From the IMG/VR virus record IMGVR_UViG_3300034418_005508, positions 1 to 64,000 of that record: 64,000 nucleotides of DNA, one strand, 5' to 3'. This DNA is from a virus. A model generated the notes under the pieces. The model had not been told where the DNA came from. It searched no databases and was given only the letters and a program-made list of their open reading frames with translations. This document shows, one piece after another, positions 19,837 to 43,900 of this stretch. Both the position numbers and the translations under genes were made by a program. Numbering within the stretch: position 1 is the first letter of the stretch; every line of letters starts with the position of its first letter.

Positions 19837-22508
19837 TATCTTCTTCTTTTACGTCTCACTGCTTTCGCTCTGCGAATATAACCACCTGTGTTACCACTTG
19901 GTCTTTTTACTCTTCTTCTCACGCGTCCTCCCAGTTGTTTTTCTTCGCTCTCCTCTAGCTTCTCTTCTTGTTGTGCTACAGCTTCCTTAGACTCTTTTTC
20001 TGCAATGTCTTGGTTGTTCTGCTCCTTCTTCTCTTGCTTCTTGCGGGCGAAGTATGCATTTATCTGCTCCTCTGTGTAGCCCATGTCTCTGAGCTGCTGT
20101 GCTTCGTATATGCCATCAGCCCCAATCTCTCTTGCAAGTCTCTCCTGAGCTCTGTATTCCAAGCTGTCTCCTGCCATACCAGCAAGTCTGTCAGCCATAG
20201 CATCAAGTGCACCAAGCTTCTCTTCACGTCTGTCTCTGATCTGCTCACGTGCAAGAGATGCAGCGAACTGACCAGCCTCCAATCCAAGTTCAGCATTGGC
20301 TTTGTTTGCCTCAAGCTTCATGCGCTTTTCTTCTGCAGACAGCTCTTTGTTTGCTTTGTTTTCTGCATTTGCAATCTCTCTATCTGCTGCTTGCTTTCTC
20401 TCCAACCCTGCAATCATGTTAACCATGCTAGCTGGACCCCCACCGCTGCCTTCAATTGCAGCCATGGTAGAACGGAAGTCATTTGCATTTGCAGAACGCT
20501 CAGCATTCAAGTTAACTCTAGGCATGTTAGGTGCCTGCACTGATGCAGCACCTGGGCCTGTTATGTATGCAGGCTGTGACTTAAATGCATAGATGGGTGG
20601 TATAAGCTGAGCTCCCATACCAAGCATTGCCAGTGTTGGGATCTCTCTAGTCTTAACGTCTTCGATGTCTCCTGGATCGTCTGGTGTTTTCTCACAGCAC
20701 TCTTGCTTCTTTGTACCATCTTCACACTCACATCCTGGAGTAGTAATAATCTCCTGCTCTACCTCTGGCATCTCCCTGCGTACTTCCCTAGGTTGTTCGG
20801 GCTTTTGCGGTATTGTAGCACTCTGAGTTTGATCACCCCACTTACCGTCTACCTTAATCTTTTGGTTGTCTGGTACACGAGAGTTGTACTCCTCTTGGTA
20901 CTTTTTTACATCCTGTGTGTCATCTACGTTAAACCCGTCCTCACCGAAGTCGATGTCTTTCACCCAGTGGCTCTCATTCTGCAGTCTACCGTCTACGTCT
21001 TTGAGTGTAACGTTAGAGTAAAGGTTATCCCCAGTCTTGAATTGTAGCAGGCCTTCTGACCAGCGAGTCACCTCTTCTCTTCTTTTAGCTGTACCAGACT
21101 CGTTGTCTGTTTCTTTAGTTACTTCACCATCTTTGATGTAGAACTTTTCTCCCTCCTTAGCATCTTTGGGGTAGAGTGGGTGGTCAGACCCGATCTCTAT
21201 TTCGCCCTCACGTATACCTGTTTTAGGCTTTTCTTTTTCTGGTGGGAGTGCATCTCCTTCTTGATACTTGCGTACACCTCCCTCTGCGTACACAGAAGAC
21301 TCTCCACCAAACTGCATCACCTTAGGGGTTCTACCAGCTTTCTTCTCTTGCATCTGAGCAAGTTTCTGTATGTCTTTCTGGCTAGCACCACCATTCAAGA
21401 GTTCTTTATGCCTCTGTGCAAACGTCTTACCACCCAGTTTCAGGTAGTCAGAGAAGATGTAGTCTGTCTTTTTACCGTCTTTTTTCATGTGTACTTTGTC
21501 CATTGTTTCCCCACCCTCGACTTCTGTCTGAGGATCGAGCATGATGCCGCCCTGTGAATGTTTCTTGCCTATGAACTCTACAGCTCCGCCCGGCAATGGC
21601 TCTGTCTTTCCTCCCTCTAGTTTGGTTCCACCGTATATGTATGACCTGCTGTACTCACCCCCATCACGCATGCCTCGCTGTGCCAGGTATGAGTTTGTGA
21701 TAGAGCCGACGTCAGCAAATCCTGTCTCACCTGATGTCTCGAACTGCTTTGCTTCTGCAGCCTGTTGTGCAAGCTGAGCTTGTTGTGCAGTACGCATTTG
21801 CTTTACAGCTTCCTTACGGTCTTTCTCTTGTTGCTTCTTCGCTTTCTTAGCTCCGAAGATACCACCAGCTACACCTGCCAAAGCTTGCAGTCCTTTACCA
21901 AACACAGGTACCTTGGCCAATGCTTGACCCACTTGGCTATCTGCTGCAGACTTAAACCCTGCACCAAACCCTGCACGCTTTGCAGCCTTACGCTCCATTA
22001 CATTGTTGCGGTATGGATCGGCTACTGCAGCCTTACCAGCCTTCTTTTCTGCATGCTTAGCAGCAAGCTGGGATAATGCATTGACTGCAGTACCCATGCT
22101 GACAGCTCCCTTCAGTCCTTCTTTGAGTCCCTTTGCCCCGTCTTCAAATATGCCTTTAACTCCCCCAGCATCTGCAAGCTCATTCTGCTTCTTCATTTTG
22201 AAGTTTTGGATGGCTCCTTTGAGTCCACCCATGTTCGTCAAACCTGAAGCTGCATCGGATACAATTGGGGTGCTTCCATCTGAGAAGTCTAGTCCCCCAC
22301 CCAAGAAGTCAAGTGCTCCACCCTCTTGCTTCTTTCGCACGTTCTCTGCAAAGATTGCTCTCTTTACTAGAGTTGGGTCGTTTGACTTTTTGGCACGGGC
22401 AATGCACTCAGCAGTTACCTTTCCTTTGCAGTATTCAGTGAACTTGCCGACAGTGCCCTTCCGCTTCATTCGCCTATTGGCTTTCTGTATCCATTTGTTA
22501 TCACTCAT
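19836..22508 (-). CDS. crAss-like cargo protein with MQFGG motif, 890 aa
   Basis: The N-terminal ~280 residues are basic and Ala/Gly/Lys-rich, with amphipathic segments and a helix rich in KKQEKDRKEA and QQAAEAKQ. Residues about 304-335 carry PLPGGAVEFIGKKHSQGG followed by DPQTEVEGGE, a signature I associate with crAss-like capsid cargo proteins. MQFGG follows at about 398-402. A linker containing TPGCECEDGTKKQECC (two CxC/CC clusters) precedes a second helical half, and the C-terminus is strongly basic (VKRPSGNTGGYIRR...RRKRRR), suggesting nucleic-acid contact. It starts in a TAATG overlap with the muzzle gene. It is probably packaged and ejected with the polymerase. MQxGG recurs in three other proteins of this window. 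Confidence 0.8.
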   Translation of the reverse strand: MSDNKWIQKANRRMKRKGTVGKFTEYCKGKVTAECIARAKKSNDPTLVKRAIFAENVRKKQEGGALDFLGGGLDFSDGSTPIVSDAASGLTNMGGLKGAIQNFKMKKQNELADAGGVKGIFEDGAKGLKEGLKGAVSMGTAVNALSQLAAKHAEKKAGKAAVADPYRNNVMERKAAKRAGFGAGFKSAADSQVGQALAKVPVFGKGLQALAGVAGGIFGAKKAKKQQEKDRKEAVKQMRTAQQAQLAQQAAEAKQFETSGETGFADVGSITNSYLAQRGMRDGGEYSRSYIYGGTKLEGGKTEPLPGGAVEFIGKKHSQGGIMLDPQTEVEGGETMDKVHMKKDGKKTDYIFSDYLKLGGKTFAQRHKELLNGGASQKDIQKLAQMQEKKAGRTPKVMQFGGESSVYAEGGVRKYQEGDALPPEKEKPKTGIREGEIEIGSDHPLYPKDAKEGEKFYIKDGEVTKETDNESGTAKRREEVTRWSEGLLQFKTGDNLYSNVTLKDVDGRLQNESHWVKDIDFGEDGFNVDDTQDVKKYQEEYNSRVPDNQKIKVDGKWGDQTQSATIPQKPEQPREVRREMPEVEQEIITTPGCECEDGTKKQECCEKTPDDPGDIEDVKTREIPTLAMLGMGAQLIPPIYAFKSQPAYITGPGAASVQAPNMPRVNLNAERSANANDFRSTMAAIEGSGGGPASMVNMIAGLERKQAADREIANAENKANKELSAEEKRMKLEANKANAELGLEAGQFAASLAREQIRDRREEKLGALDAMADRLAGMAGDSLEYRAQERLAREIGADGIYEAQQLRDMGYTEEQINAYFARKKQEKKEQNNQDIAEKESKEAVAQQEEKLEESEEKQLGGRVRRRVKRPSGNTGGYIRRAKAVRRKRRR

Positions 22509-28500: not shown

Positions 28501-29143
28501 CATATGCAAGTGCAAGGTGATATGTGCCTGATCTTACTGCACCACCTTCAAACACATATGCATTCTTGATACGAGAGTGTGTGCCCACTTCAGGGAACAA
28601 GCTTAGCTTATCTACAGTGTAGTTGTTCTCCCCATACAAGACCTCGAACGCACTAGCGCCAGGGGCTATGGCAAACCACTGCAGTTGTCTAGTTACATTA
28701 AATGTCCTTGGTGGGTTAAAGTCGGATACGTAAGACGCTTCTGTGATCGTCTCATCTATGACGTAGTAGTTGTCCGTGAAGTAAACAATGACATCGTTCT
28801 TAGCATCTCTTCTGTACTCACCTATAATAGGATGGGATCTCTTGAAGTTGAGTTTATCGCTGCGGTACAGTACGGTTGTCTCTTTCTTGACTGGGTCAAC
28901 AAGTATGATCTCGCAGCTTGTATTTTGATTTACCCCAATGCCGAAGATGATCAGCCTTTCTTCGTCAATTGGTATTGCACCAACGACGTCTACGTTCAAC
29001 GATACGGCAAGCTCATTGCCCCATTCGTTGCTCATAGTGCCTGTCTCTACGCTTACTGTAGCGTTGAGCGCATCTCTGTACGTCCCATCAGGCTGTTCAG
29101 CCTTGGACGTATCTTTAGCCATACCTCCAATAAACTTCTTCAT
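22508..29143 (-). CDS. Tail muzzle / stabilization protein (P22 gp10-like), 2211 aa
   Basis: The N-terminus (GGMAKDTSKAEQPDGTYRDA followed by a conserved SNEWGNE block) and the later GYGGTMSGLSSYTTEVGHFY stretch (from about residue 1779) are hallmarks of the crAss-like tail stabilization or muzzle protein. That protein belongs to the P22 gp10/T7 gp12 tail-tube family that forms the distal tube through which DNA leaves. The conserved GYKIYYAKRTNSDRL element lies mid-protein. At 2211 aa it is long for the family; the extra length is in the middle, including a charged linker around KKDVDDIEDYSDVSELRARR and Tyr/Gly-rich beta regions. It overlaps the ring-protein gene upstream by 4 bases (ATGA), matching ring-then-muzzle order in relatives. 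Confidence 0.88.
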   Translation of the reverse strand: MKKFIGGMAKDTSKAEQPDGTYRDALNATVSVETGTMSNEWGNELAVSLNVDVVGAIPIDEERLIIFGIGVNQNTSCEIILVDPVKKETTVLYRSDKLNFKRSHPIIGEYRRDAKNDVIVYFTDNYYVIDETITEASYVSDFNPPRTFNVTRQLQWFAIAPGASAFEVLYGENNYTVDKLSLFPEVGTHSRIKNAYVFEGGAVRSGTYHLALAYADEDFVETNYFVVSNPVYIIPEPDTTVPADIVIGAQGGTTTTKSVHWEVYIPKTVQYKYLQPAVIQRIGNAENVYKLDRIQIQSTNDDDAYDSINTLDIVGNTTPPTGAFNDPSIDTEDFVADRRTSPPPAPFVETSGQASEQRSSSNFGLSSSIFTIVYSGREDASTLSLLDIVADQVKYLTAKTLTQLNDRLYLGNLISRKDIGFQRYASNIKIKPVVKAVEGFDRRVYDIITLNKGYGTMVMPYYAVKEHPAGFDGIGQTYYQSEQNGAPANPATLGIDAVDSMYPDYVSSIADYLRYPDSGQIQLRLGDGKFGVSYNLAQATRRGYKDNRFSYRGKSFRRGDVYAFYVSFVLRDGTETFAYHIPGRREVPLVTTQQQANIISNSGLCNGDPVPTDTYYKFLLGELDPNETDCLGDYLMESDRFTHKGENLHLKSHGFHAPELKEQSKVARIYQVIDTSYNTSFAGGDPINHGDDGAYTALKMNMGFWENQSERYPENFDWVHADVDRDTGEQTNIIGPGNTDGYSFDSYYHKYYSLYGRKVRHHRMPSNYNPDFSYVKYSGAGEDILTGNNTGIQYGPLAWDRNYGGIFFENAGNLSQRGFVAAFEDPTTGIPQTYQNNLDYLGAAWISNHRDKKIASDSYVKKKLITSETVRILGIQLENLKIPKHMLKEIQGYKIYYAKRTNSDRLISGQSLAIPAMPRYASSPNQNRLLARKGPYFNAFYAFGGLRSDMETAMAVASKWKAAYHTDNNPDAAGRGQEQVPNPNRAEQFPYAGPTIVDRMFRYYANPVFTFHDFNMLRKRPTLNTVTHIQCQAAIAFRQFQGGPGVFGARKEDEENKEKLTTFPSLGWISQALGNTVDYNVDGEIYDVTDTFIDADEDVSNPYGSDNPPADQEDKPGGLFKRAFRRLRGKEKDVDDIEDYSDVSELRARRYRIRSYRGGAYVACAHYHPEQIYRHREIIKGGDHRWNGQQNIWYNSAGKDWSLIKPAGFEFVDSYCAPRNSQFTFMLDPGSKTYLPGQRNLKTAESSSFKGAQYIFNRGGESSIVMALVSGLPHLKGLVPFKGNAIPGFPWYLGDGSDDGGGEYGPFNIAAWGDDDKFLFPDAWFQASKDPKPVRPIPDHAVYLYGSSVTTENSNFKGLNYTLAGADYEWGYPMAWLINVCSLKTDVYTPFDKQELVWTGYYYSIDEEFKEWEDKYNLAEGACYAALKTGTTAAINDLDFTSAGGSTVLSPVKKYFSGAESTEVYGGDTYISKYAFRTTSHSYGHSWFRASSALGDAGPSGASGLNSTDALKVIGNPGTNGVNLGYIQNTRQKDVPDFLSLNDFLTNWGTAGGMSVWQGNFITTITDTTYPEFPNSTEVGKIESFISETLLNANNWQQGNSNPVTSLFTFMVESDDNIGLRHQKDSEKGQATKFFDFNTAAEVLFSPPTQDFTKQDQLLYEDHFSFVQDKRVAVPFPKVRAGTEENDQFRNRIIRSKSATGALSDRYREFLANDYADIPKKRGDITDMFTMNDTLYVHTEKALFQTKGNEQLELGSVKAFIGSGDIFAIPPTELQESEIGYGGTMSGLSSYTTEVGHFYVSRRSRKVHMLTQGITEVMGNMNHWFRENIPFEIERYGINVDAHEFPYYPDAPTNTNVPMGFIVGYDPKFKRIILTKREPLPTQTLIDGLQDGTIEIQNNMFFAVQQNNSKTGVKLSKSEREYTHRRNLEAFRENTAIDKLGPSDTAREIASDINHPANKGNVKSGPIGLSNPTYFTQSGWTLSYLPDLQIWISRHSYVPDIFITGEQTYYTMYKGSVYMHNDEDNPGNFYNTLYNFELEFIDNANPAMAKLYSNVYYWADAKSRSEDYTTEFKRQTFPIFDRFYVYNTTQISGEFTEINYLNNCRLVDGIWYINSFRDLAAVVVNTNSYINTGEPNVVGKLTTKVESTREDTPMFTYEGVPNPEYINAEKQWYEQKKFIGHYLGVRLISNNESKNLIYLYSAGTKFRNSYR

Positions 29144-30165
29144 GCTATAGAGTTGGTGCTGTAGTTACCTCTGTACAAATTCTCTCTTGTGTTGAGAGTT
29201 CCCATCACGTTGTCAAACTCGCTGATACGTGGTACGAGTCTAACCCACTGGTTCATGAACGATTCGTATCTCGCCATGTCTGGGTACTTAGCTTCATTAC
29301 GAGCCTGTGTACAGTAGAACTTCCACTGCTGGTCTGCGAAGCTGTAATCGATTCCGTTTGTTGATGGATCAAATGATGCACCAAGCAACAGCTTCTTGTA
29401 TATGTACCAGAACATAGCTTCCTTGAAGCTGATGTCGTCTGGTATCAATGGCCAGCATTCTGTATCTGTTGCAAATGCTGTGTACGACAAGCAGAGCTTA
29501 CCTGTTCTGAATGACGTCTTGATTCTATCGTTCTCTACGAGGTAACACTCGTTAGACGTAGTGAATTCGTTCACACACTTATCGCAGTGTATGCCTCTAG
29601 GGAAGTTAGTTGTGCAGTACTGTATTGGTGTGAGATTACCTACAGTCGGGTTCATGTATGCTGTATATATTACCTGAGCATCTGCAACAAGTTTGTTGAG
29701 ATCTTTGTCTGTAGTTTTTCTAGTTTTTTCTAGACCGTTTACAGTAGTGTCAAAGGCATTAGCTATTAGTGAAGTAGATTGAGCACTACTAGCGAAGAAG
29801 TTTAAACTGGTAGCTATCCCGTCTAGGTAAGGGCCATAGAGATTTCCTAGGTCGCTGTACTCTTTTGTCAGGTCTGTTATCTCTTTTCTTAGATCTGCAA
29901 TCTTAGCACTAAGAGACTGTTCTTGCTCTGTTTGATTGATCGCAACCTGGTTGATGTAGTATACATCTGGAGGTAGTGTTGCTTTGAAGTCATCTACTTC
30001 AATGATGCACCCTTTGCTTTCTACGTGCGCACCAGCACCAATGTGTTCGAGTGCTTCCCCAATCCATTCAACAGCATCGTAGATCCAGTTACCGTCACCA
30101 GGGTTCAAGTCACGCATGACTTTCCTGATGATCGCTTTACATGATATAGTCTTATATGTCGCCAT
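29140..30165 (-). CDS. Ring/collar (head-to-tail connector) protein, 341 aa
   Basis: The N-terminal pattern, an acidic-aromatic helix with DAVEWIGEALEHIGAGAH followed by an LPPDVYYINQVAI strand, is typical of a crAss-like ring protein that stacks between portal and muzzle. A coiled-coil segment follows (about residues 80-110, LSAKIADLRKEITDLTKEYS). The centre has several Cys residues, including a CDKC pair, and the C-terminal part is helical and Trp/Tyr-rich. It sits directly before the muzzle gene with a 4-base overlap. Assignment is by pattern and position; which of the several crAss ring proteins it corresponds to cannot be decided by reading. Confidence 0.72.
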   Translation of the reverse strand: MATYKTISCKAIIRKVMRDLNPGDGNWIYDAVEWIGEALEHIGAGAHVESKGCIIEVDDFKATLPPDVYYINQVAINQTEQEQSLSAKIADLRKEITDLTKEYSDLGNLYGPYLDGIATSLNFFASSAQSTSLIANAFDTTVNGLEKTRKTTDKDLNKLVADAQVIYTAYMNPTVGNLTPIQYCTTNFPRGIHCDKCVNEFTTSNECYLVENDRIKTSFRTGKLCLSYTAFATDTECWPLIPDDISFKEAMFWYIYKKLLLGASFDPSTNGIDYSFADQQWKFYCTQARNEAKYPDMARYESFMNQWVRLVPRISEFDNVMGTLNTRENLYRGNYSTNSIA

Positions 30166-30634
30166 GCTTCTTGAATCTTAAGTATGCTAAGTCATCGTTT
30201 TTCAGGAGTGATGTTAACTTCTCCTTGTTCCCCTTGATTCCTCGGGTTGGGGTAAACCTGTATGCAGACTTGTTAGATATCTTACATCTAGACTTCTGCC
30301 AGTGATATTTGCAGTACCAGGGGTCAGTGTAGTAGATAAACCACTTCTCACCTTCCCCTGATTCTGCGTCGTAGAGCTGCTTACCTTCTGCAAGCAGTTC
30401 TTGTTTGTACTTGTTGCTCTCCCACCAGTCTATCGTAGGCTTACTGGGATTGCGCTCTATGCGTCGTATTGACAAGGTGGACAGGTTGCTGCCCATGCTG
30501 AACTCCTTACCATCAAGGATCATACTGATGACCTCCATGTTGAACTCTTCACACAGTTGCTTAAACAGTCGTGTTTCGATGGGGTCTTCAATATTCTTTA
30601 CATAGTCCTTATGTATGTCCTTGATGGTATGCAT
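30152..30634 (-). CDS. Conserved crAss-like late protein, 160 aa
   Basis: A compact 160-aa protein with an N-terminal helix (FKQLCEEFNMEVISMILDGK), a glycine-containing turn (SMGSNLSTLSIRRIERN) and a C-terminal half rich in Trp, Tyr and Lys ending in RFTPTRGIKGN. The fold resembles small conserved proteins found beside ring proteins in crAss-like phages, but I cannot attach a proven function. It overlaps the 341-aa ring gene by 14 bases and begins in a TAATG overlap with the basic protein upstream, so it belongs to the same transcript. Likely a minor connector or tail-assembly factor, by position only. Confidence 0.6.
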   Translation of the reverse strand: MHTIKDIHKDYVKNIEDPIETRLFKQLCEEFNMEVISMILDGKEFSMGSNLSTLSIRRIERNPSKPTIDWWESNKYKQELLAEGKQLYDAESGEGEKWFIYYTDPWYCKYHWQKSRCKISNKSAYRFTPTRGIKGNKEKLTSLLKNDDLAYLRFKKHGDI

Positions 30635-31440
30635 TATCTAGTTATAGTCTTCTTCTTTCTTTCGTTCCTTCTGTTCATCCTACCGGCAACTCTTTCAGCC
30701 CTCTTCTTGCTTACAACTTTGCTTCTGTCTGCAGTGCGTTGGCTTTGAACTTCATACAGTTCTTTGTCTCGCCTTGTTTCTCTGCGCTTGCTGACAACTT
30801 GCTTGTTTCTCTTCACATCTACATTGCGGCGCTTTCCTTCGATCGTTCTTCTTTTCTCTCCGCGCTTTGCCATGACCTGCTCTTCTTGATACGGTCCTTC
30901 GTCTTTCTTCTTTCTCTTACCACCCAGCAACTTTGTGCTAGTGTTTATTTTCTTTCTCCTCTTGTTGTACCTAGACTCAAGCTTTTTGGCTTTTGCTCTA
31001 CGCTTGCCTACGCGGCCATCCTGTGGACCTACATCTCTGTTTGTAGTGCGTGTGACGTTCTTCTTGATTTCATAGGTGCCGTCTTCATTTTGAACAACTT
31101 CTTTAGTTCTTACTCTACGAGTTTTAACCCTACCTATATTTCTTGGCTTACTGTTGGGGGTTCGTGAAGCCAATGTGGCAGGGCCACCTTCTTGTTTGAT
31201 CACACCTCTACCCTTGAGGATGTCAGCTCTGGTCACTTTACCGTCACCAGTCAAATCAGGGAATCCACCTTCCTTCTTCTTGGAGTTGCTCATGCTACCA
31301 GGTCCTCCTGCCTTAGTGCAGCGTACACCCCAAGCATTTGCATATGCAGACGGATACACATCGAACTTAGATCTAGCTGCTGCTTTACAGGGCCCGCTGA
31401 TCTTGAATCCACCTTTCTTTTTAAAATCTGGATATTTCAT
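30634..31440 (-). CDS. Highly basic virion-type protein with YPSAYAN and dockerin-like motifs, 268 aa
   Basis: The longest frame starts at 31485, but ATG 31440 is preferred: it falls 11 bases after the upstream stop and begins MKYP behind the leader AAGAGACATG, exactly as the neighbouring 340-aa gene does. Domains in order: a Cys-containing N-terminal module with FDVYPSAYANAWGVRC (seen in small conserved proteins of marine phages); an EF-hand/dockerin-like loop PDLTGDGKVTRADILKGRGV; then ~170 residues that are extremely Lys/Arg-rich (NKRRKKIN, RNEKKK-type runs). No enzyme motif is present. The composition predicts DNA or RNA binding, perhaps as packaged cargo lying on the genome. Confidence 0.7.
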   Translation of the reverse strand: MKYPDFKKKGGFKISGPCKAAARSKFDVYPSAYANAWGVRCTKAGGPGSMSNSKKKEGGFPDLTGDGKVTRADILKGRGVIKQEGGPATLASRTPNSKPRNIGRVKTRRVRTKEVVQNEDGTYEIKKNVTRTTNRDVGPQDGRVGKRRAKAKKLESRYNKRRKKINTSTKLLGGKRKKKDEGPYQEEQVMAKRGEKRRTIEGKRRNVDVKRNKQVVSKRRETRRDKELYEVQSQRTADRSKVVSKKRAERVAGRMNRRNERKKKTITR

Positions 31441-31451
31441 GTCTCTTGTTA

Positions 31452-32474
31452 TTATTCGTATGCTCCGCATCCCCCACCTTGACATCCAGAACCGCTGTTA
31501 GATCTTTCTTTTCTACGGTTCCTTCTAGCTGTTCTTCTAGCCTGTGAAGCTGCTTTCACCTTACCTGCAAAGTCTCTAACCTTGTCACGTCTCTTTTGAC
31601 GTCTACGCTTTCTCTTCGCTTTGTTCTGAAGCTTTTCTCTGTATCTGTCGAGACCAACTTCCCCAGCACCCTGTCTGTCTGACTTCTTTCTTCTAGCACC
31701 TACGCGCTTGAATCTTTCAACTTTACGTCCTGTCTGTCTCTCGCTTCTATCGGCTTCTCTTTGTTCCTTCTTGGTACGAGTGCCCTTGATAACTTCAACG
31801 TCTATTCTATCCTGCTCTGACTTAGGCAGTTCAAACATACCCCCGTTCTGCATTTTGCCTTCTTTGCGCTTTACTCTTCTGCGAGTACGAAGTCCTTTCT
31901 TACCAATTTTATATCTAGGCTTGTCTTTGGTAGACTCGTATCTAGCATCAGGGTTAGGCATGTCTCCTGGAGGGACGCGTCTTTTCCTACGGCGATCTGG
32001 AAGTCCGCCTCTTTGTAGTGCACCAGTATCCATACCTGCACCAACAGCTGATGTATCTACACCACCACCAACAGCACCTGTCATTTCAGGCGCAGTTTCA
32101 GCCGGTTCTTCGGGTTGGTTCTTTCTGTCCTTGAACTCTTGAAGTCTATCTGCATAGCCTTCTTGTATTTTGTCAGCAAGGCCTGCATTGGCGTTGTTGT
32201 TAAATCCTCCAGCAGCACCTGCAGCAAGTCCTTTGAGTCTTTCTTTAAAGCCTTTGCCTTTGTTTGCTCTGAAGCCTTGTATAGCTCCCATGGCTCTACC
32301 GACACCAGTTCCAGACAAGAATCCTTTACGTCCTGCCTTTCTCAGTTCCTTACCTGTAAGGCCCTGTTCTTTAGCACGCTTACGTGCACCGGCACGACCT
32401 ATAAGACCTCCAATGATTTTCTTACTGACACCCTTCTTACGGCGTCCCATTCCTGGTAGTGATGGATATTTCAT
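31452..32474 (-). CDS. Highly basic cargo-like protein with MQNGG, GGLPDRR and CxxxxCGAY motifs, 340 aa
   Basis: The protein starts MKYPSLPGMGRRKKG and is Arg/Lys-rich throughout. Order: basic N-terminus; Gly/Ala-rich amphipathic segment (LKGLAAGAAGGFNNNANAG, about residues 85-103); acidic/Pro linker; GGLPDRRRKRR from residue 156; MQNGG at 208-212; a long basic helix; and a C-terminal CQGGGCGAYE (Cys331 and Cys336). No enzymatic motif. The same ordered elements occur in the 393-aa neighbour, which looks like a diverged paralogue. Four-part composition (membrane-active-like, basic, GG motifs, Cys tail) suggests a packaged DNA-binding protein. It is preceded by a G-rich hairpin. Confidence 0.7.
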   Translation of the reverse strand: MKYPSLPGMGRRKKGVSKKIIGGLIGRAGARKRAKEQGLTGKELRKAGRKGFLSGTGVGRAMGAIQGFRANKGKGFKERLKGLAAGAAGGFNNNANAGLADKIQEGYADRLQEFKDRKNQPEEPAETAPEMTGAVGGGVDTSAVGAGMDTGALQRGGLPDRRRKRRVPPGDMPNPDARYESTKDKPRYKIGKKGLRTRRRVKRKEGKMQNGGMFELPKSEQDRIDVEVIKGTRTKKEQREADRSERQTGRKVERFKRVGARRKKSDRQGAGEVGLDRYREKLQNKAKRKRRRQKRRDKVRDFAGKVKAASQARRTARRNRRKERSNSGSGCQGGGCGAYE

Positions 32475-32491
32475 GTTCTCTTAGTTAGAGA

Positions 32492-32509
32492 GGGGAGCCG
32501 GAGCTCCCC
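32492..32509 (-). terminator. G-rich hairpin after the 393-aa basic-protein gene
   Basis: On the minus strand GGGGAGC, loop TCCG and GCTCCCC form a perfect 7-bp stem in the 43-base gap between stop 32518 and start 32474. The sequence after it is only moderately T-rich (TCTCTAAC), so it may be a partial terminator or a 3'-end stabiliser rather than a full stop. Its stem sequence resembles that of the hairpin after the major capsid gene. Confidence 0.55.
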
Positions 32510-32517
32510 CCCTGTTA

Positions 32518-33699
32518 TTAGACTTTGGGTCTACCCCAGTGTCTAGTCTTTCTTGTATTCGTAGTCTTTCTGCTGCGAGTCCTAATCTTTTTAGCCCTCT
32601 TCTTGCCTTTGCTGTGGTCATAATCGTACGCTCCGCATCCACCTGGTCCGCAGCTACCTCCGCTTTGGAATTTAGCTCTACCTCTGACTCTGGTCTTGAA
32701 GCCTGTGCTCTTCCTTGTTTTCTTTCTCTTAGGCATCTTTGGTCCTCTGCCGCCATCGTATGCTGCGCAAGGCTGTCCTTTTCTACATCCGCCTCTTTGA
32801 CGTCTGTCGACCAAACCGCCCTTCAGCATCTCCTCAGTCATTGCGTCCTCTTCAGCTGCTGGATCTGCTCCTGCCATTGGATCGGCTTGAGCTGCCATAG
32901 ACTGTTGCTGAGCTGCCATACCTTGATCCGCACCCACTCCCTGCATTCCCTGCTGGAAGTTTTGCTTCATGTTCTGGACACCAGCTTTCAAGTTACCGAT
33001 ACCCTGCTTTATCTGACCAGCTCTTACACCAGCTCCTGCTGCTGCACCCGCTGCCATTCTACCGAAGAATCCTTTACCTTGAGCTTTAGCTTCTTGTCTA
33101 GCAGCACGACGTGCCATACGTCTTTCCTTACCACCTTTCAATGCAGCTGCACCCAACGCCATACCGAGAAGTGCTTTCTTAGGCTCTCCCCCATTTCTCA
33201 AACCTCTGTACGTTGTTGGCTCTGCCTCACCTCTTTTGACTGCTTGCCTAAACTCGTAGTTGTCTCTGATTCTAGCAGACGCCTTCTTCTGACGTACGCC
33301 TTTCTTCATCGTTCTTGCAGCGCTCCTAGTCTCTTTCTTGGTATTAGACTCACCAAGCATCTTCATGCCTTTCTTCATGTTAGCCTTACTCTTGGTAAGC
33401 TTCTTAGCAGAGCGCTTGATAGCCCCTGGGACTTTACCGAACTTGACTTCTTTAGAGTCTTCGATAAATGATTTTGGGTCTTTCTTTTTAGCTTCGCTCA
33501 AGCTTCCACCGGCTTGCATCTTACTTCTGTCTCCATGGGGAGCCGTTCGACGCTTCTTGAGCTCTCTCCAGCGCTTTCTTGTCTCGCGGATTTTCTTGCG
33601 ATCTTGTCTTCGAGCCTGACGCTTTTCTTTGCCTGGTTCCATGTCTTTGATCATGATGGCACCTGTTGGGCGTTTGCCGCCACGTTGTTTGTAATTCAT
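32518..33699 (-). CDS. Highly basic cargo-like protein with MQAGG, GGLVDRR and two CxxxxC-AY motifs, 393 aa
   Basis: A 393-aa basic protein. The first ~60 residues are almost continuous Arg/Lys helix (KEKRQARRQDRKK), followed by MQAGG (61-65). A basic middle leads to a Gly/Ala/Met/Gln-rich amphipathic region (about 215-285). GGLVDRR follows at 294-300, then CRKGQPCAAYD (305-315), a basic segment, SCGPGGCGAYD (Cys350 and Cys355) and a final basic tail. The order of elements matches the 340-aa protein next door, with a duplicated Cys motif. No catalytic residues were seen. Probably a nucleic-acid-binding virion component; the Cys pairs could bind metal or form disulfides. Confidence 0.7.
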   Translation of the reverse strand: MNYKQRGGKRPTGAIMIKDMEPGKEKRQARRQDRKKIRETRKRWRELKKRRTAPHGDRSKMQAGGSLSEAKKKDPKSFIEDSKEVKFGKVPGAIKRSAKKLTKSKANMKKGMKMLGESNTKKETRSAARTMKKGVRQKKASARIRDNYEFRQAVKRGEAEPTTYRGLRNGGEPKKALLGMALGAAALKGGKERRMARRAARQEAKAQGKGFFGRMAAGAAAGAGVRAGQIKQGIGNLKAGVQNMKQNFQQGMQGVGADQGMAAQQQSMAAQADPMAGADPAAEEDAMTEEMLKGGLVDRRQRGGCRKGQPCAAYDGGRGPKMPKRKKTRKSTGFKTRVRGRAKFQSGGSCGPGGCGAYDYDHSKGKKRAKKIRTRSRKTTNTRKTRHWGRPKV

Positions 33700-33708
33700 A
33701 ATTTCTAA

Positions 33709-33933
33709 TTATTTTTTCCAAGATACCCGCTTAGATGATTGTTTTCTGCGCATACCTGCTTTTGTACATGCGCTCATAGTAGGTCTGCAGGCCGGGTACC
33801 CTGTCTTCCTACTTTTCTTTGCTGACGATCTACCACAAGGGACAAACTTACCTGCGGCTTTAGCTGCTTTGCAGTCTACCCAGCCACGGCCCTGGTTACG
33901 ACCAAACCATTTTTTAAGTCCCTCGCTAGCCAT
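33709..33933 (-). CDS. Small Cys-rich basic protein (KWFGRN-WVDC-CGR type), 74 aa
   Basis: A 74-aa protein reading KKWFGRNQGRGWVDCKAA, VPCGRSSAKK, YPACRP and SACTKAGMRRK, with four Cys and about 25 percent Lys/Arg. This layout (K-x-WFGxxx-GWVDC ... PCGR ... YPxCRPT) matches a short family I know from marine phages and large viruses, close to DUF5872-like proteins, with no established function. It starts in a TAATG overlap with the 129-aa protein. Its basic, Cys-rich nature fits the surrounding cluster of presumed nucleic-acid-associated virion proteins. Confidence 0.7.
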   Translation of the reverse strand: MASEGLKKWFGRNQGRGWVDCKAAKAAGKFVPCGRSSAKKSRKTGYPACRPTMSACTKAGMRRKQSSKRVSWKK

Positions 33934-34322
33934 TACGCTTTAGTCCAGTAGCCGTATTCGTAGCTAATTTCGTCAGTTGTGCTGCTTGTTACTCTGATAC
34001 CTTTGGCTCCTTTTACTGGGAGGAATATTGCTTCTCCCTCAGCCAAGTCTGCAAAGTCTTGAGTGTTCTCTGCTGTGCTTAGGACGAGGACAGGTGTGCC
34101 TCCGTCTTTGCTTACGTACTTGATATATACGTATGTGGTATCAGTTACACCTGTACCTAGAATGGTATTTGGTCCTGTAGAACTAGTTACAGTGCCTGAG
34201 GCCAAGTTTACTACAGGGGCTTCTATGGTCAGAGAGTCTGTTACAGATATACCAAACCCTGCGGTTGTTGTTGTGGACGACCCCGTAGATGTTAGTGACA
34301 GCCTTGATTTAATGTTTCCCAT
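33933..34322 (-). CDS. Small beta-rich structural protein, 129 aa
   Basis: A Thr/Ser/Val-rich protein with no Cys. It is predominantly beta by appearance (SLTIEAPVVNLASGTVT, TTYVYIKYVSKDGG, AIFLPVKGAKGIRVTSS). The pattern resembles small phage tail or head accessory proteins that present a quantity or field along the particle; a similar-sized beta protein lies at 38510-38899. No enzymatic motif, signal peptide or membrane segment. It begins 12 bases after the stop of the DUF6321-like gene. Function unknown; virion location inferred from the module. Confidence 0.6.
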   Translation of the reverse strand: MGNIKSRLSLTSTGSSTTTTAGFGISVTDSLTIEAPVVNLASGTVTSSTGPNTILGTGVTDTTYVYIKYVSKDGGTPVLVLSTAENTQDFADLAEGEAIFLPVKGAKGIRVTSSTTDEISYEYGYWTKA

Positions 34323-34334
34323 TGTTGTTCGTTA

Positions 34335-34640
34335 TTAGCACCGGCAGTTCCACTTGCGCAGTGACTTATTGATTCTTGAATTAGGATCTCTCTTACCCTT
34401 AGATCCTGTTCTCTTTGCTTTCATTCCACACATACGTGAGCAGAATGACTTTCTCCTGGACTTGCGTTTACCTGAGGGGTTAGACTCAGTTACTGGAGCA
34501 GCAAGTTTGCTCCCCGGGTTAGCAGCTCTGTAGGATGCCCTACCTTTTGCATTGAGACCTCCGCTTGGGTTTTTACCAGCTTTCCTAGTCCAAGCAGCTC
34601 CTCTCTGATACTGTCTTTTATTTTTACTGAAGTATGTCAT
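34335..34640 (-). CDS. DUF6321-type basic protein, 101 aa
   Basis: The text AAWTRKAGKNPSGGLNAKGR, then RASYRAANPGSKLAAPVT, SFCSRMCGMK and a C-terminal LRKWNC is the signature of the short family I know as DUF6321, widespread in phages and some bacteria and of unknown function. The protein is strongly basic with four Cys. A 4-base ATGA overlap couples it to the 85-aa gene upstream. As part of the basic cluster it may bind DNA or another packaged polymer; that is inference. Confidence 0.75.
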   Translation of the reverse strand: MTYFSKNKRQYQRGAAWTRKAGKNPSGGLNAKGRASYRAANPGSKLAAPVTESNPSGKRKSRRKSFCSRMCGMKAKRTGSKGKRDPNSRINKSLRKWNCRC

Positions 34641-35986: not shown

Positions 35987-36670
35987 TTATTGTCCTTGTT
36001 GTTTATCGTTAACGGTGTCGTTTATACTATTTGTTAGCATAGCGAATTCACCTTGTACCAAACCTTGTGTTATAGCGCTAACCATATCTAAAGGTAATGG
36101 GTATGCCATCTGGTCGTCATAACAATAATCGTTTTCACATGTAGCAAATTTCCCTACTTCTTCGGGATCTTCGAACACGCCTCTAACGTTTATCTTTTCC
36201 ATACCGTTAGGTTCGTAGACGTAAATATACTCATCAATGACGTAATAACGTGTAAGTCTAGATGTATATTTATCGTATGGAATCCATTCCAGTTCGTAGG
36301 GTTCCATCTTAGGTATGGTGTCTGCACCGTTTACTTTACCTATGAATGTAAAAGCATCAGTGAGATTGAACCTAACAGTCTTAGGCATTCTCCTGTTGGT
36401 TCGATATATGGTACATCCTGTAGGTACTGCAGGACCTATGGTTCCTTCGCAGCATCTAGCCCAGTTGACTCTTTCTAGGTCTATGCATCCCAGGTCTTGT
36501 TCTATGGTTTTAGAGACGTACCCATTCCGTGAGTAGTCTCTACGTATCATCATAGCCCTGTAATGCTGGATGTTGAACTTTATCTGATCGATAGATATAA
36601 GTTCATCGTTACTGCTCCTGCCGCCCCTAAGCAGGTTCAGTATGTTATATGCCATTTCGTCAAGAGTCAT
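35987..36670 (-). CDS. Ring/collar (head completion) protein, 227 aa
   Basis: The N-terminal half reads EMAYNILNLLRGGRSSNDEL, then an arginine-rich helix (QHYRAMMIRRDYSRNG), QDLGCIDLERVN and a CC pair followed by GCTIYRTNRRMPK. This is the pattern of a crAss-like ring protein that attaches to the portal, related in role to P22 gp4. The C-terminal half has Tyr-rich strands and a final helix (LPLDMVSAITQGLVQGEFAM). It overlaps the next upstream gene by 11 bases. With the 341-aa and 412-aa proteins it would make at least three ring-type proteins in the particle. Confidence 0.75.
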   Translation of the reverse strand: MTLDEMAYNILNLLRGGRSSNDELISIDQIKFNIQHYRAMMIRRDYSRNGYVSKTIEQDLGCIDLERVNWARCCEGTIGPAVPTGCTIYRTNRRMPKTVRFNLTDAFTFIGKVNGADTIPKMEPYELEWIPYDKYTSRLTRYYVIDEYIYVYEPNGMEKINVRGVFEDPEEVGKFATCENDYCYDDQMAYPLPLDMVSAITQGLVQGEFAMLTNSINDTVNDKQQGQ

Positions 36671-36950: not shown

Positions 36951-38070
36951 TTGCCTGTAAATAGCCCTCAAGTCCTGTGGACTTATTCCATATATATGCT
37001 TGCCCTGTTCTTTTAGCTTCATACCCCATTTGCTTATGCCATTCATCGTTAGGACAAATAGAAGGTATGAACCGTACTTTGATACCTCTGTACTCATTTA
37101 CCATTTCTTTGTGGAGATGCCCGCAGTGCACTTCTCGGTGTTCTGTACGTGCAAACATCTCTGGTTTTTCAGTTGCCATTATTAGTGGCATGTCTGCAGG
37201 TTTCTCCTTATCACCATGTGTGAACATGATCATGTTCGTGCCATACTCGTAGTACTTGCGTGAATCATAGTCATTGTCCACGGTGACATTGGCATCATTT
37301 CTATACCATCCTGCTAACACATCTCCTGCATAGAACATGCGTTCGTAGTCATGGTTACCTGATACAACGATTACATCTACCGGTGCTCTTTGCTTAAGGA
37401 AGTCGATCGCAGTAGTCATCAGTTGCCAGTAACCTCTAAAGGTATCCTTCCACCCAGCAGAGTCCTGCTGTGGTGTCCCTTTGGTTGTAGTACCTCTCAT
37501 ACCCTCAGAGTTCATACCGTCATTACCGATGGGAAGTATGAATCTTTCTATATCAAGTCCCGCCGCTTTTCTCCAGAGTTCTTCCACCACCTTCATGTAC
37601 TGCTTCTCAACCTGATCAAGTGTCAGGCTATGAAGCTTTCCGTAGTGGATGTCGGGCAATGAGATCTCGTACGCTACTGGCTCAAGAGCAGGCTTGTAGT
37701 CTACTCTGTTAACCTTGGGGCTGTACTTAGCTGCAAAGCTTTCTATCTCATCTTTGATTGCTTCGACGCTCATTGAGTCACCCTTTGTGACTACAGAGAA
37801 TCTCTGCTGTCCTGACACAGTCTGCCAGAACTTTACACTAGAAACGTCGGACGGGCTGATGCCGTTCTTGTCAAGGAACTGTTCGAACTCACTAATGACA
37901 CTCTCGTTATCATTCGTGTTTTCTTCATTACGTGCCAGCTTCCTGGCTTCGTACAACGCTGTCTCACAATCTTCGATAGGGCAATTAAGTCTCTCAGATA
38001 GTACGTCAGCGCTTTTCTTAAGGTATCCTCGCCTCTCGGCGATGAAGTCTTTGATTTCGTTTACAGTCAT
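36937..38070 (-). CDS. Calcineurin-like metallophosphoesterase, 377 aa
   Basis: All five metal-binding blocks are visible: DIH (residues 140-142), GND (182-184), GNHD (238-241), THGD (284-287) and GHLH (317-320). The protein is therefore a binuclear metallophosphatase; the substrate (phosphoester of nucleotides, nucleic-acid ends or other) cannot be read. The first ~60 residues look like a small helical DNA-binding or adaptor domain (SADVLSERLNCPIEDCETAL). It sits between the holin and a ring protein inside the virion block, and overlaps the holin stop by 4 bases. Similar proteins occur in marine phage late modules. Confidence 0.9.
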   Translation of the reverse strand: MTVNEIKDFIAERRGYLKKSADVLSERLNCPIEDCETALYEARKLARNEENTNDNESVISEFEQFLDKNGISPSDVSSVKFWQTVSGQQRFSVVTKGDSMSVEAIKDEIESFAAKYSPKVNRVDYKPALEPVAYEISLPDIHYGKLHSLTLDQVEKQYMKVVEELWRKAAGLDIERFILPIGNDGMNSEGMRGTTTKGTPQQDSAGWKDTFRGYWQLMTTAIDFLKQRAPVDVIVVSGNHDYERMFYAGDVLAGWYRNDANVTVDNDYDSRKYYEYGTNMIMFTHGDKEKPADMPLIMATEKPEMFARTEHREVHCGHLHKEMVNEYRGIKVRFIPSICPNDEWHKQMGYEAKRTGQAYIWNKSTGLEGYLQANVRV

Positions 38071-38513
38071 GTGTTTGGTTTACGACTCTTTTCAATTGTT
38101 CTACCTGCGAAGTATGCACCGAATGCAGTAAGCATAAGTATCTCGAGCAGAGATACATAGCTGTCCTTTACATTGAAAGGCCATGCGTCCATGGAGTCTG
38201 CTATCATTGTAGCCATGAACATCACCATCAAACAGATCAGTGTGACGGGTCTGATGTACTTCGCAAGCTTTACATCGCTACCCATGTCGGCTTTCCACCG
38301 CTCAGTAACGTTGTTTTGAAATGCTATCTCAGCATCTATCTTAGCCTTTGCTTCGGCTGGATCAATCCCTGGCTCTTTGTCCAAGAGATTCTTTACGACA
38401 CCAAGTGCACCTTGGTCAGGGAGTAGGTCACCTACTGTACTAAGTACGTTAGGTGCCTTCTCCTTTAACCATTTGCCAAGGCCGGTATCTTTTATTTTTT
38501 TACGCTCACTCAT
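38067..38513 (-). CDS. Holin, GTA-type 3TM family
   Basis: A 148-aa protein with the family signature ERWKADMGSD followed by YIRPVTL (about residues 71-92), then two clear hydrophobic segments at about 87-107 (VTLICLMVMFMATMIAD) and 118-136 (SLLEILMLTAFGAYFAG), ending RTIEKSRK. This matches the holin family first described in gene transfer agents. A weaker amphipathic N-terminal segment could be the third. It should form inner-membrane lesions that let the endolysin reach peptidoglycan; the amidase fragment at the window's end is a plausible partner. It overlaps both neighbours by 4 bases. Confidence 0.85.
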   Translation of the reverse strand: MSERKKIKDTGLGKWLKEKAPNVLSTVGDLLPDQGALGVVKNLLDKEPGIDPAEAKAKIDAEIAFQNNVTERWKADMGSDVKLAKYIRPVTLICLMVMFMATMIADSMDAWPFNVKDSYVSLLEILMLTAFGAYFAGRTIEKSRKPNT

Positions 38514-40957: not shown

Positions 40958-43900
40958 TTAGAATATTATTTCGTTCCCGTCTTCGTCTTGGAATCCTATG
41001 GATGAATTACCACCAAAGTCCTGGGTTCTGTTGTTAGGACCAATGCCCTGTCCTTCGTTACTTTCATAGATGCCTGAGTTTGCAAGTGGATCTATCTCAC
41101 AGTTGTCGCAGTATCTCTTGATGAAATCCACGAATGTCTGGAAGTAGTTCTCTGGGTTGCCCCCGCTTTGGAACTTGACGTTGATGCACGCTTCCCACAC
41201 TCTTTGCTTTTTGTCTGCTGTTACTCCTGGGAGTGTCATTCCAGGAGACCAATCTGACTTTGCAGTGTAGTAGCTTGACGTACTCACTCCGTTCACGACC
41301 CTCGTGTACTTGACTGTAGTTCCTTTTCTGTAGTTGCTACTTGCAGCGAATCTTTGATATCTGCCTGCAGCCCACCTTGCTTTACAGTCGATCTCTTTCA
41401 TTCTATTGCTGAAGCCTCTAACCTTACCGTTTCTCTTGACCCCGGCTTCATAGTTATCGCAGTCAAACAAACAATCAAGGTTGTTCTTTGAGCCTTCGAT
41501 GAACAAGTATGCAATAAGAGCAAGCTTGGTTGTATCTACGTCATCCAGGTGTATGCCTGCTTTGAGTCGGAACATGTACTTAAGTGCATCTCCGCTGGCG
41601 CAGGACATCAGTACCTGAGTCAACCAGTCTTTGTCGTACTCTTCATTTAGAGCTGCTTCCTCGAATATCGGGTTGCATACAATTGTAGTAGTTGTGAACG
41701 TTTCGATGGGCTCACACTCATTGTTTGCTACACTCTGCTCGCATGGTTGTTGTCCAGGGTTGCACAACTCTGGATTTAGCAAACACTCTGGATTACAATC
41801 GTTGCCTACACAAGGACAGTCACCGGTCTCTAGGCAGTTCACGATAGGTGGATTTACACAGTCCGGGTTGTTCGGGTCTGGGCAGGGATCTTCGACGCAG
41901 CCCTCTCCTGTTGGGTCATCTTCACAATCTGTACATCCTGCACCATTACAAGCGTAAGTGCACTGGCCGTTGTCTGCATTTTCCCCTCTACACTCAGGGT
42001 CGTAGTTAGTCGCACTTTGATCCGCGCAGCACTTACCTCCTCCCTCGCAATCTCTGAGGCTTGCACTGAATCCTCTACTTCCTGCTGTTAGTGTTTCATC
42101 TGCACGTTTGTCGCATAGAAGACACTCTGGGTGTGTTGGGTACAAGTCGCAGAAGTCACATGTAGTGCAGTACACACAAGTGCCATCGTCAATTGTTGCG
42201 TCTGGGTCGTAGTTCTCGGCCCCAGGGTCAGTGCAACCTGCTACGTTGTCTGGACAGTCATCCGGGTTTGTAAACTGGTTACAAGGTTGAGGACAGTCAT
42301 CTGTGTTCGTTATCATGTCAATGACATGATAAGTTTGCTCATCTGCGAACTGACCAAACTCTGCAATACAGTCTTCAAGTCCCCCGAAGTTTTCACCAAC
42401 AGCTGTTGCGTCGATGTGGGGTACTACAAACAGAAGGTATTGACCCCCAGTTAAGTCGTTGGTTGGTCCAAAGAGCGCACCTAACGGAACATTTATTTCA
42501 TATTCAGAACCCGCTAAACTTTCCCCTATACCAAATGGGTCACCGTTTGTTATAGGTGTGGTAGTCATATCCCCAACTCCTATGAAGGCTGCAGCAGTAT
42601 TACTCATAGTCAGGAATTCTCCTTCTCCTAGGCCTTGTATAGCGGTTACGTTGTTGTCGTAGAAGACCATGGCCTCACCAACAACGTTGATGTTTCCTCC
42701 GCTTACGTAGGCTACGAACAGTACAAAGTTTCCTTCGTTAGCTCCAAGTGCTCCTGTTGGGCTTGATACCGAGTAGTCTTGGACTGTGACAGTCATACTG
42801 CCATCGTAGTTCGGGTCGTAGTAATAGTACGGCTCTCCTCCATCACTGGGCTCTGCTACGTAAACGCAATCTGAGCTTGCTCTGGTTGACTCTACGTCCG
42901 TTATGAATATAGAGTTAAGTGCATCATTGAATATTTCTTCGCATGGTATGTACTCGCAGGAACCATCATCGGAGTTTGCATCCGGGTTGAAGTTCACCGC
43001 TGTCTCGTCCATACATCCCTCTACCAAGTCTACGCAGTCTTCTGAAGTTGACACGTATGAGATAAGTTCTGCGGGGCAGATTACTGATGTTGGGTTACCG
43101 TCATCGTCTACTATGTAATCTACTACATCCAGCAGACTTACAAACTGGCCGCTGTTATCTATAAGTCCAGTTGCTTGAAGTGTAACTCCTATCACAGCCT
43201 CACCCACAGATCCGTTGTTATCCTGATCGAAGTCAAAAGGACCTGCATTTATAACAGCATTTGCTCCCTGGAATGTGCTGATCACTGACTGTGTTATAGC
43301 TATCTCTGGATTAGGTACGTAGAGACCGTTTTCTACTATGTGAGAAACTACTGTCTGTTCAAGAATACCATCTACAGTTATCTCAACTATGTAATAGAAT
43401 GCAAATCCTGTCTGCGGTTCAATGAGTTGATATGCATCTCCTAGAGTTCCACCTTGTCCTGGGTCTGACTGTACAAAGAATCCATCGATAAGAATGCTGA
43501 AATTAGCTTCTCCGTACACATTTCCATTCTCGTCTGGTCCGACGCAGTCTGTAGCTATTTCTGTAAGACACCAAGAGTAGAAGTTGCCGCAAGTTACACT
43601 TTCGTCCTCTCCTTGGAACTCACATATTCTTGAGTTGAGCAATCCTGTAGATATACCATCCTCAGATGTTACACAGAAGTTAGGTGTAAATACACCGGAG
43701 CCATCTGCGAGGAATGTATTAAATTGGTCTGTTGGGGTGTTTACTCCAGGGTAGAAACTTACTCCATCCCATGGAGTTCCTTGCCACGGAGCATTGTCTG
43801 CTCCTGCATAGTTTCCTGCGGAAGTTGATGTTGGATCAGTACATTCACAGTATTCCACGAAGAAGTGGTAGGCCATGTAGTAGAACTGCTTCTGACCGCA

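Follow-up and report, generated by a model that had tools for sequence, protein, structure and literature searches.

Basic, cysteine-containing proteins encoded between two ring protein genes of a crAss-like phage: a gene module linked across aquatic phages, with a plausible nucleoprotein role

Closest described systems

In the crAss-like virus record IMGVR_UViG_3300034418_005508 (IMG/VR), five Lys/Arg-rich genes lie between the genes for ring protein 2 (R2) and ring protein 1 (R1). They are the subject of this analysis, and the window referred to throughout is the stretch of 64,000 bases that was analysed out of the 65,550 bases of the record. In phage phicrAss001, the same interval contains gp42, described as 'HU/IHF-like', and a homing endonuclease gene only, whereas the window adds five strongly basic proteins to p160, a homologue of gp42 in the same slot. 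The initial annotation knew of no described crAss-like system of this kind; this has to be qualified, as an IHF/HU-like hallmark gene had already been placed in that slot and p160 is the copy in the window.

One family in the interval, DUF6321 (Pfam PF19846), has no described function, and a literature search found no paper on it. The window protein at 34335-34640 is a member that stands alone, whereas in T4-like cyanophages DUF6321 is a domain of larger proteins. These belong to the T4-GC119 group (SSM1_115, S-SCSM1_29 and the RB11-B 'structural protein'), which resembles the window in combining PSAYA, DUF6321 and WVDC-like domains and is found at the terminase locus. The group differs in being a single fused protein of a contractile-tailed phage, while the window has separate genes. 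T4-GC119 is mentioned once in the paper text, as a hypothetical protein.

Packaging of basic DNA-binding proteins (A278L, A282L and others) with double-stranded DNA has been reported for virions of the chlorella virus PBCV-1 (PMC3281028). PBCV-1 is a eukaryotic virus with a low DNA density, and it is likened to the window phage by its basic packaged proteins and not by homology. In tailed phages, packing of DNA is usually ascribed to cations and polyamines, and basic proteins are not credited with a major part in it (PMC3281028).

Basic genes between the ring protein genes

The major capsid protein of the window is crAss-like (PF23898, 1.7e-77). The five basic genes occupy 30634-34640 on the minus strand in the open reading frame (ORF) list, flanked by R2 and R1, and the features of the interval are as follows (aa, amino acids; pI, isoelectric point).

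35987-36670, minus strand: R2, one edge of the interval (PF25702 CrAss_Ring_2, 5e-35)
34335-34640, minus strand: DUF6321 protein, 101 aa, pI 11.7, with Cys C67 and C99 invariant in the alignment (PF19846, 1e-20)
33933-34322, minus strand: acidic 129-aa protein, pI 4.6, within the basic run
33709-33933, minus strand: WVDC protein, 74 aa, with Cys C21, C33, C49 and C56 invariant in the alignment (phrog_23735, weak)
32518-33699, minus strand: p393, 393 aa, low-complexity and basic, net charge about +73, with four xQxGG motifs, two Cys-pair motifs and a Gly/Ala-rich segment
31452-32474, minus strand: p340, 340 aa, low-complexity and basic, net charge about +57, with xQxGG motifs, resembling p393-like proteins
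30634-31440, minus strand: YPSAYAN (PSAYA) protein, 268 aa, with a PSAYA motif with two Cys, the segment FPDLTGDGKVTRADILKGRGV and a Lys/Arg-rich tail
30152-30634, minus strand: p160, between the basic run and R1, ortholog of phicrAss001 gp42
29140-30165, minus strand: R1, the opposite edge of the interval (PF24228 CrAss_Ring_1, 3e-54)

Five basic, Cys-containing genes in the structural block, placed beside ring proteins, had been noted in the initial annotation, and both observations hold. All five are on the minus strand and encode proteins with 27-30% Lys plus Arg, pI values of 11.1-11.7 and net charges of +19 to +73, with four Cys each in the DUF6321 protein, the WVDC protein and p393, and two each in p340 and the YPSAYAN protein. 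Lengths of 340, 393, 74 and 101 aa were confirmed; the YPSAYAN product, given as 268 aa, is longer in the ORF list (283 aa for 30634-31485, where the start lies upstream, at 31485), and its internal Met start (MKYPDFKK...) is supported by a relative (L083) whose protein begins there. The cluster is not an unbroken run, as the acidic gene at 33933-34322 interrupts it, and p160 belongs to it as a sixth gene.

In relatives, too, the R2-R1 interval is regularly occupied by basic genes, beyond what chance would give. Across 52 distinct contigs carrying both ring genes, 96 of the 151 interval genes are basic against 4/504 outside it (Fisher p ~1e-69, which is nominal, as the contigs are related by descent; the count leaves out p160). 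Of these 52 intervals, 51 contain p160, 27 contain DUF6321 and 43 have another basic gene. In the gut and fish-pathogen crAss-like phages examined, the interval holds the HU/IHF-like gene only, with or without an endonuclease, a lysozyme or one small non-basic gene.

Among the five basic proteins, DUF6321 gave the only Pfam match, over the full domain (1-72/72) and at 74.6 bits against a gathering cut-off of 28.5. The WVDC and PSAYA proteins matched PHROG families weakly only, and NCBIfam gave zero matches for all five. No Pfam, PHROG or NCBIfam model matched p340 or p393, which are similar to each other's relatives.

A module shared with other aquatic phages

By homology and gene linkage, DUF6321, PSAYA and WVDC form one linked module that is wider than the crAss-like phages. 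Marine podovirus contigs (L175-L187) carry it as a tight three-gene cassette (DUF6321, then PSAYA, then WVDC), with DUF6321 after the pair in three contigs. In most cases the next gene has ~560 codons; in L183, the single case tested, it encodes a T7-type TerL (phrog_38, 7e-92), and in L175 a T7-type nozzle gene lies upstream. The order in DSL-LC04 is cement, DUF6321, PSAYA, WVDC and adaptor, with small genes interspersed, and in C72C1 the genes for PSAYA and WVDC are flanked by those for the small terminase subunit and the portal. In pelagiphage HTVC027P, the portal (gp43, phrog_1216) is followed by a run of small genes with gp44 (FPDLTGDG segment), gp49 (PSAYA), gp50 (WVDC) and gp52 (DUF6321), and in the T7-like cyanophage P-SCSP1i DUF6321 directly follows the capsid gene. 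The P-SCSP1u cryo-electron microscopy paper contains no mass spectrometry (MS), and a term search of it did not lead to the P-SCSP1u DUF6321 protein.

In T4-like cyanophages the domains are fused. SSM1_115 of S-SM1 (T4-GC119), the RB11-B protein and S-SCSM1_29 match PSAYA with E values of 1e-25 to 1e-27 and DUF6321 with 1e-36 to 1e-38, and also have a WVDC-like N-terminal domain. SSM1_115 lies just after TerS, and S-SCSM1_29 between TerS and TerL. The cyanophage W-domain profile also finds the WVDC proteins of C72C1 and HTVC027P, at ~1e-3.

The initial annotation had proposed a neighbourhood search across marine phages for co-occurrence of these families, and such co-occurrence was found: among 78 further PSAYA loci, a W domain is present in 71/78 and DUF6321 in 44/78. 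It had also stated that families unlinked to virion genes elsewhere would refute its reading, and the families proved to be largely linked to such genes. A recognised virion or packaging gene lies within 7 kb at 53/78 of the PSAYA loci and 53/80 of the DUF6321 loci. All of these counts are lower bounds, as the set of virion-gene queries was limited and a large share of the contigs is short. The linkage, seen in several phage lineages, is to ring, terminase, portal and capsid genes, and exceptions include the immuto phages and the petE/PTOX/gnd/zwf cassette of T4-like cyanophages. Further, DUF6321 occurs in 47 contigs of bacterial or archaeal assemblies, several with a portal gene, and these therefore look phage-derived.

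Matches to the YPS profile arise partly through Lys-rich composition and the FPDLTGDG segment; the evidence for PSAYA was taken instead from the motif and from PSAYA-profile searches. The segment itself (FPDLTGDGKVTxADILKGRGV), which resembles an EF-hand or dockerin calcium loop, is nearly unchanged in crAss-like basic proteins and HTVC027P gp44; it lies at 30634-31440 in the window and at 4989-5255 in L207 (gp44, directly after the portal). A PSAY(R)-WVDC fusion (L197, 4740-5210) also occurs in the cultured Flavobacterium phage immuto, among nucleotide-metabolism genes.

Detection in cyanophage virions

Virion association of the recognisable families, that is, of PSAYA and DUF6321 homologues, is supported by studies of cultured cyanophages. 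In S-CREM2, gp160 (L204, 10343-11236) contains PSAYA (2.8e-24) and W-like (1.1e-15) domains in profile searches, and MS of virions detected this protein (7 unique peptides, 13.1% of its sequence covered; PMC10665884, Table 3). For S-SCSM1_29, with PSAYA (6e-27) and DUF6321 (1e-37), the record that goes with an MS study (PMC9602691) gives the label 'virion protein'. The S-SCSM1 terminase subunits and several baseplate genes are without that label, and the labels track MS detection closely but not exactly. The gene for S-CREM2 gp160 is close to a cytidylyltransferase gene, the product of which was also detected in virions.

The neighbour p160, possibly HU/IHF-like

The p160 gene lies directly before R1, and its product is only mildly basic. 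An hhalign comparison with phicrAss001 gp42, in which the query profile was built without gp42, gave a probability of 98.5 and an E value of 2e-15. As gp42 occupies the same R2-R1 slot, homology and position together identify p160 as its ortholog. That p160 is HU/IHF-like is suggested by three weak-to-moderate tests, namely this profile comparison, Pfam searches of its homologues and a structural search. PF14848 (HU-DNA_bdg) was matched by 10/49 p160 homologues (best 2e-4), the window p160 itself having no Pfam match. The AlphaFold2 (AF2) model, with a mean predicted local distance difference test score of 74.5, shows an HU-like order of elements (H-H-E-E-..-E-H), and its top Foldseek matches are HU/IHF proteins, the best (E 0.076, probability 0.89) falling below significance. 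A PDB sequence search with the DUF6321 protein and p160 returned nothing meaningful.

The gp52 protein of p-crAssphage (BK010471, KP06_gp52; L188, locus 7-711) is annotated as an IHF subunit and matches ring protein 2 in Pfam (PF25702, 5.8e-57). Older IHF labels in crAss-like genomes therefore need rechecking.

Possible roles of the basic proteins

The initial annotation had read the five proteins as a nucleoprotein set, histone- or protamine-like, packaged with the DNA. The feature is real and, on gene context and homologues, this reading is plausible; the further suggestion in the initial annotation, that the proteins may be ejected to organise the genome in the host, is a conjecture. The part of it concerning virion association is borne out for the recognisable families by the cyanophage MS studies, and the proteins do have the protamine- or histone-like trait of being strongly basic and Lys/Arg-rich, with pI values above 11; bulk charge neutralization in the manner of protamines is unlikely. 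In the form that we consider about evenly balanced between right and wrong, the R2-R1 interval would encode proteins that bind nucleic acid and belong to the virion, probably to its interior. DUF6321, PSAYA and WVDC would work as a single unit, exchanged among aquatic phages as separate or fused genes and kept beside packaging and connector genes. In crAss-like phages, this unit and disordered Lys/Arg-rich partners (p340, p393 and the PSAYA tail) lie beside the ancestral HU/IHF-like p160. In the mechanism considered most likely, the folds of the small Cys-conserved domains would be stabilised by disulfides or metal, and these domains would have DNA or the portal/connector assembly as their target. 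The disordered basic chains would attach by charge to packaged DNA close to the portal and might leave with it. Location inside the particle, binding of DNA and exit together with it are parts of a proposed mechanism for the basic proteins.

Several observations weigh against this proposal. No homologue of p340 or p393 was present in any proteome examined. In phi14:2, R1, R2 and the muzzle are marked as detected by MS, but gp084, which occupies the p160 slot, has no such mark. The S-SCSM1 record carries 48 'virion protein' labels by our count, against 45 proteins detected in the paper. The AF2 model of the DUF6321 protein is helical, of moderate confidence, and gave no fold match in the PDB. 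The link between WVDC and the cyanophage W-like domain is weak (probability 22 alone, 80 with intermediates). Finally, T4-GC119 of S-SM1 lies directly before the petE/PTOX/gnd/zwf metabolic cassette, and the PSAY(R)-WVDC fusion of immuto phages lies away from recognised structural genes.

Bulk protamine-like condensation of the DNA is disfavoured by charge and space. The full basic set carries about +230 charge per ~133 kDa, at one copy of each protein. If the 5.5 MDa of cargo space of phicrAss001 (PMC10172136) is taken as a guide, ~41 sets would supply ~9,500 charges, whereas the 65.5-kb genome has at least 131,000 phosphates, so that ~7% of the phosphates would be neutralized. The neighbouring genes agree better with a local role, at the portal or connector.

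The same neighbourhood also speaks for a different role, in which the module is a minor accessory of assembly or packaging. Its target, while DNA is packaged or head and tail are joined, would be the terminase, portal, adaptor or ring complex, and it would be present in virions at low copy, with no coating of DNA. Terminase, portal, adaptor and ring genes are its most consistent neighbours, and small conserved Cys-bearing domains would suit protein-protein contact or metal binding. However, such an accessory would need neither the very high positive charge nor long disordered basic partners, and the HU/IHF-like neighbour points toward DNA. On balance we regard it as somewhat unlikely, though deserving serious consideration.

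Motifs shared with cargo proteins

Grouping of the basic genes with cargo motifs had also been proposed in the initial annotation and is supported by the xQxGG motif, which is common to p340, p393 and the window counterpart of phicrAss001 cargo protein C1 (gp45). The proteins concerned outside the interval, and the portal gene that one of them adjoins, are listed here.

19836-22508, minus strand: C1-like cargo protein, 890 aa (BLASTP to phicrAss001 gp45)
54369-56369, minus strand: p666, a 666-aa basic protein adjoining the portal gene, with xQxGG motifs and a basic C-terminus
56366-58579: portal-like protein

The C1-like protein and gp45 share 52% identity over 63 aa (E 9e-14); p340 and p393 share short motifs and composition with the window's C1-like protein, and no further homology was seen, although no direct pairwise comparison with gp45 or gp46 was made. 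C1, the PSAYA protein, p340, p393 and p666 together have 12 xQxGG motifs against 0.6 in shuffles, with 0/2000 shuffles reaching 12; in the remaining proteins there are 2 where 1.1 would be expected. The slot's basic proteins in relatives carry a related motif at a density of 6.7 per 1000 aa, compared with 0-0.4 for ring, capsid and muzzle proteins. This sharing supports the view that p340 and p393 have a property in common with cargo proteins, and xQxGG may possibly be a packaging tag or a processing site. A GG-specific protease was considered for it, and no protease of that type was present among the genes scanned.

These motifs, along with the Gly/Ala-rich segments of p340, p393 and C1, would also suit a role of p340, p393 and their relatives as C1-like ejection proteins, with membrane-active Gly/Ala-rich segments and with charge serving translocation rather than organisation of DNA. 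This explanation leaves DUF6321, PSAYA and WVDC, which are mostly without the motif, unaccounted for, and phicrAss001 gp45 shows no clear excess of a looser GG motif (reached by 174/2000 shuffles); it is considered unlikely. Late non-virion proteins that bind nucleic acid to organise replicating phage DNA or to interfere with the host, with virion detection as carry-over, are highly improbable: the S-SCSM1 authors do caution that abundant non-structural proteins may persist through caesium chloride purification (PMC9602691) and some homologues lie outside structural blocks, but unrelated phages repeatedly place the module within late structural blocks and a second phage, S-CREM2, yielded a detection.

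Elsewhere in the window, the tail region encodes an acidic 2289-aa protein (40958-47827) with 64 cysteines, a FQSGG motif close to its C-terminus and no Pfam match. A holin gene (38067-38513; phrog_3427, 1.5e-21) lies inside the structural block, and a uracil-DNA glycosylase gene (317-1051) is found on the opposite strand at the window start.

Implications

Several uncharacterised families common in aquatic phage genomes prove to be one linked module at packaging and connector genes, detected in virions of cultured cyanophages, and this gives context to PF19846 and to two families without Pfam models. The module offers a concrete way of testing for a delivery of DNA-bound proteins into the host by some phages. 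A further-reaching version, which we consider a long shot, is a chromatin of tailed phages, in which basic Cys-domain proteins and disordered proteins, transferable as a set and accompanied by an HU/IHF-like partner, would be packaged on part of the genome, enter the host and protect or organise the incoming DNA. If true, it would mean that protein-based handling of the genome is common to unrelated aquatic phages.

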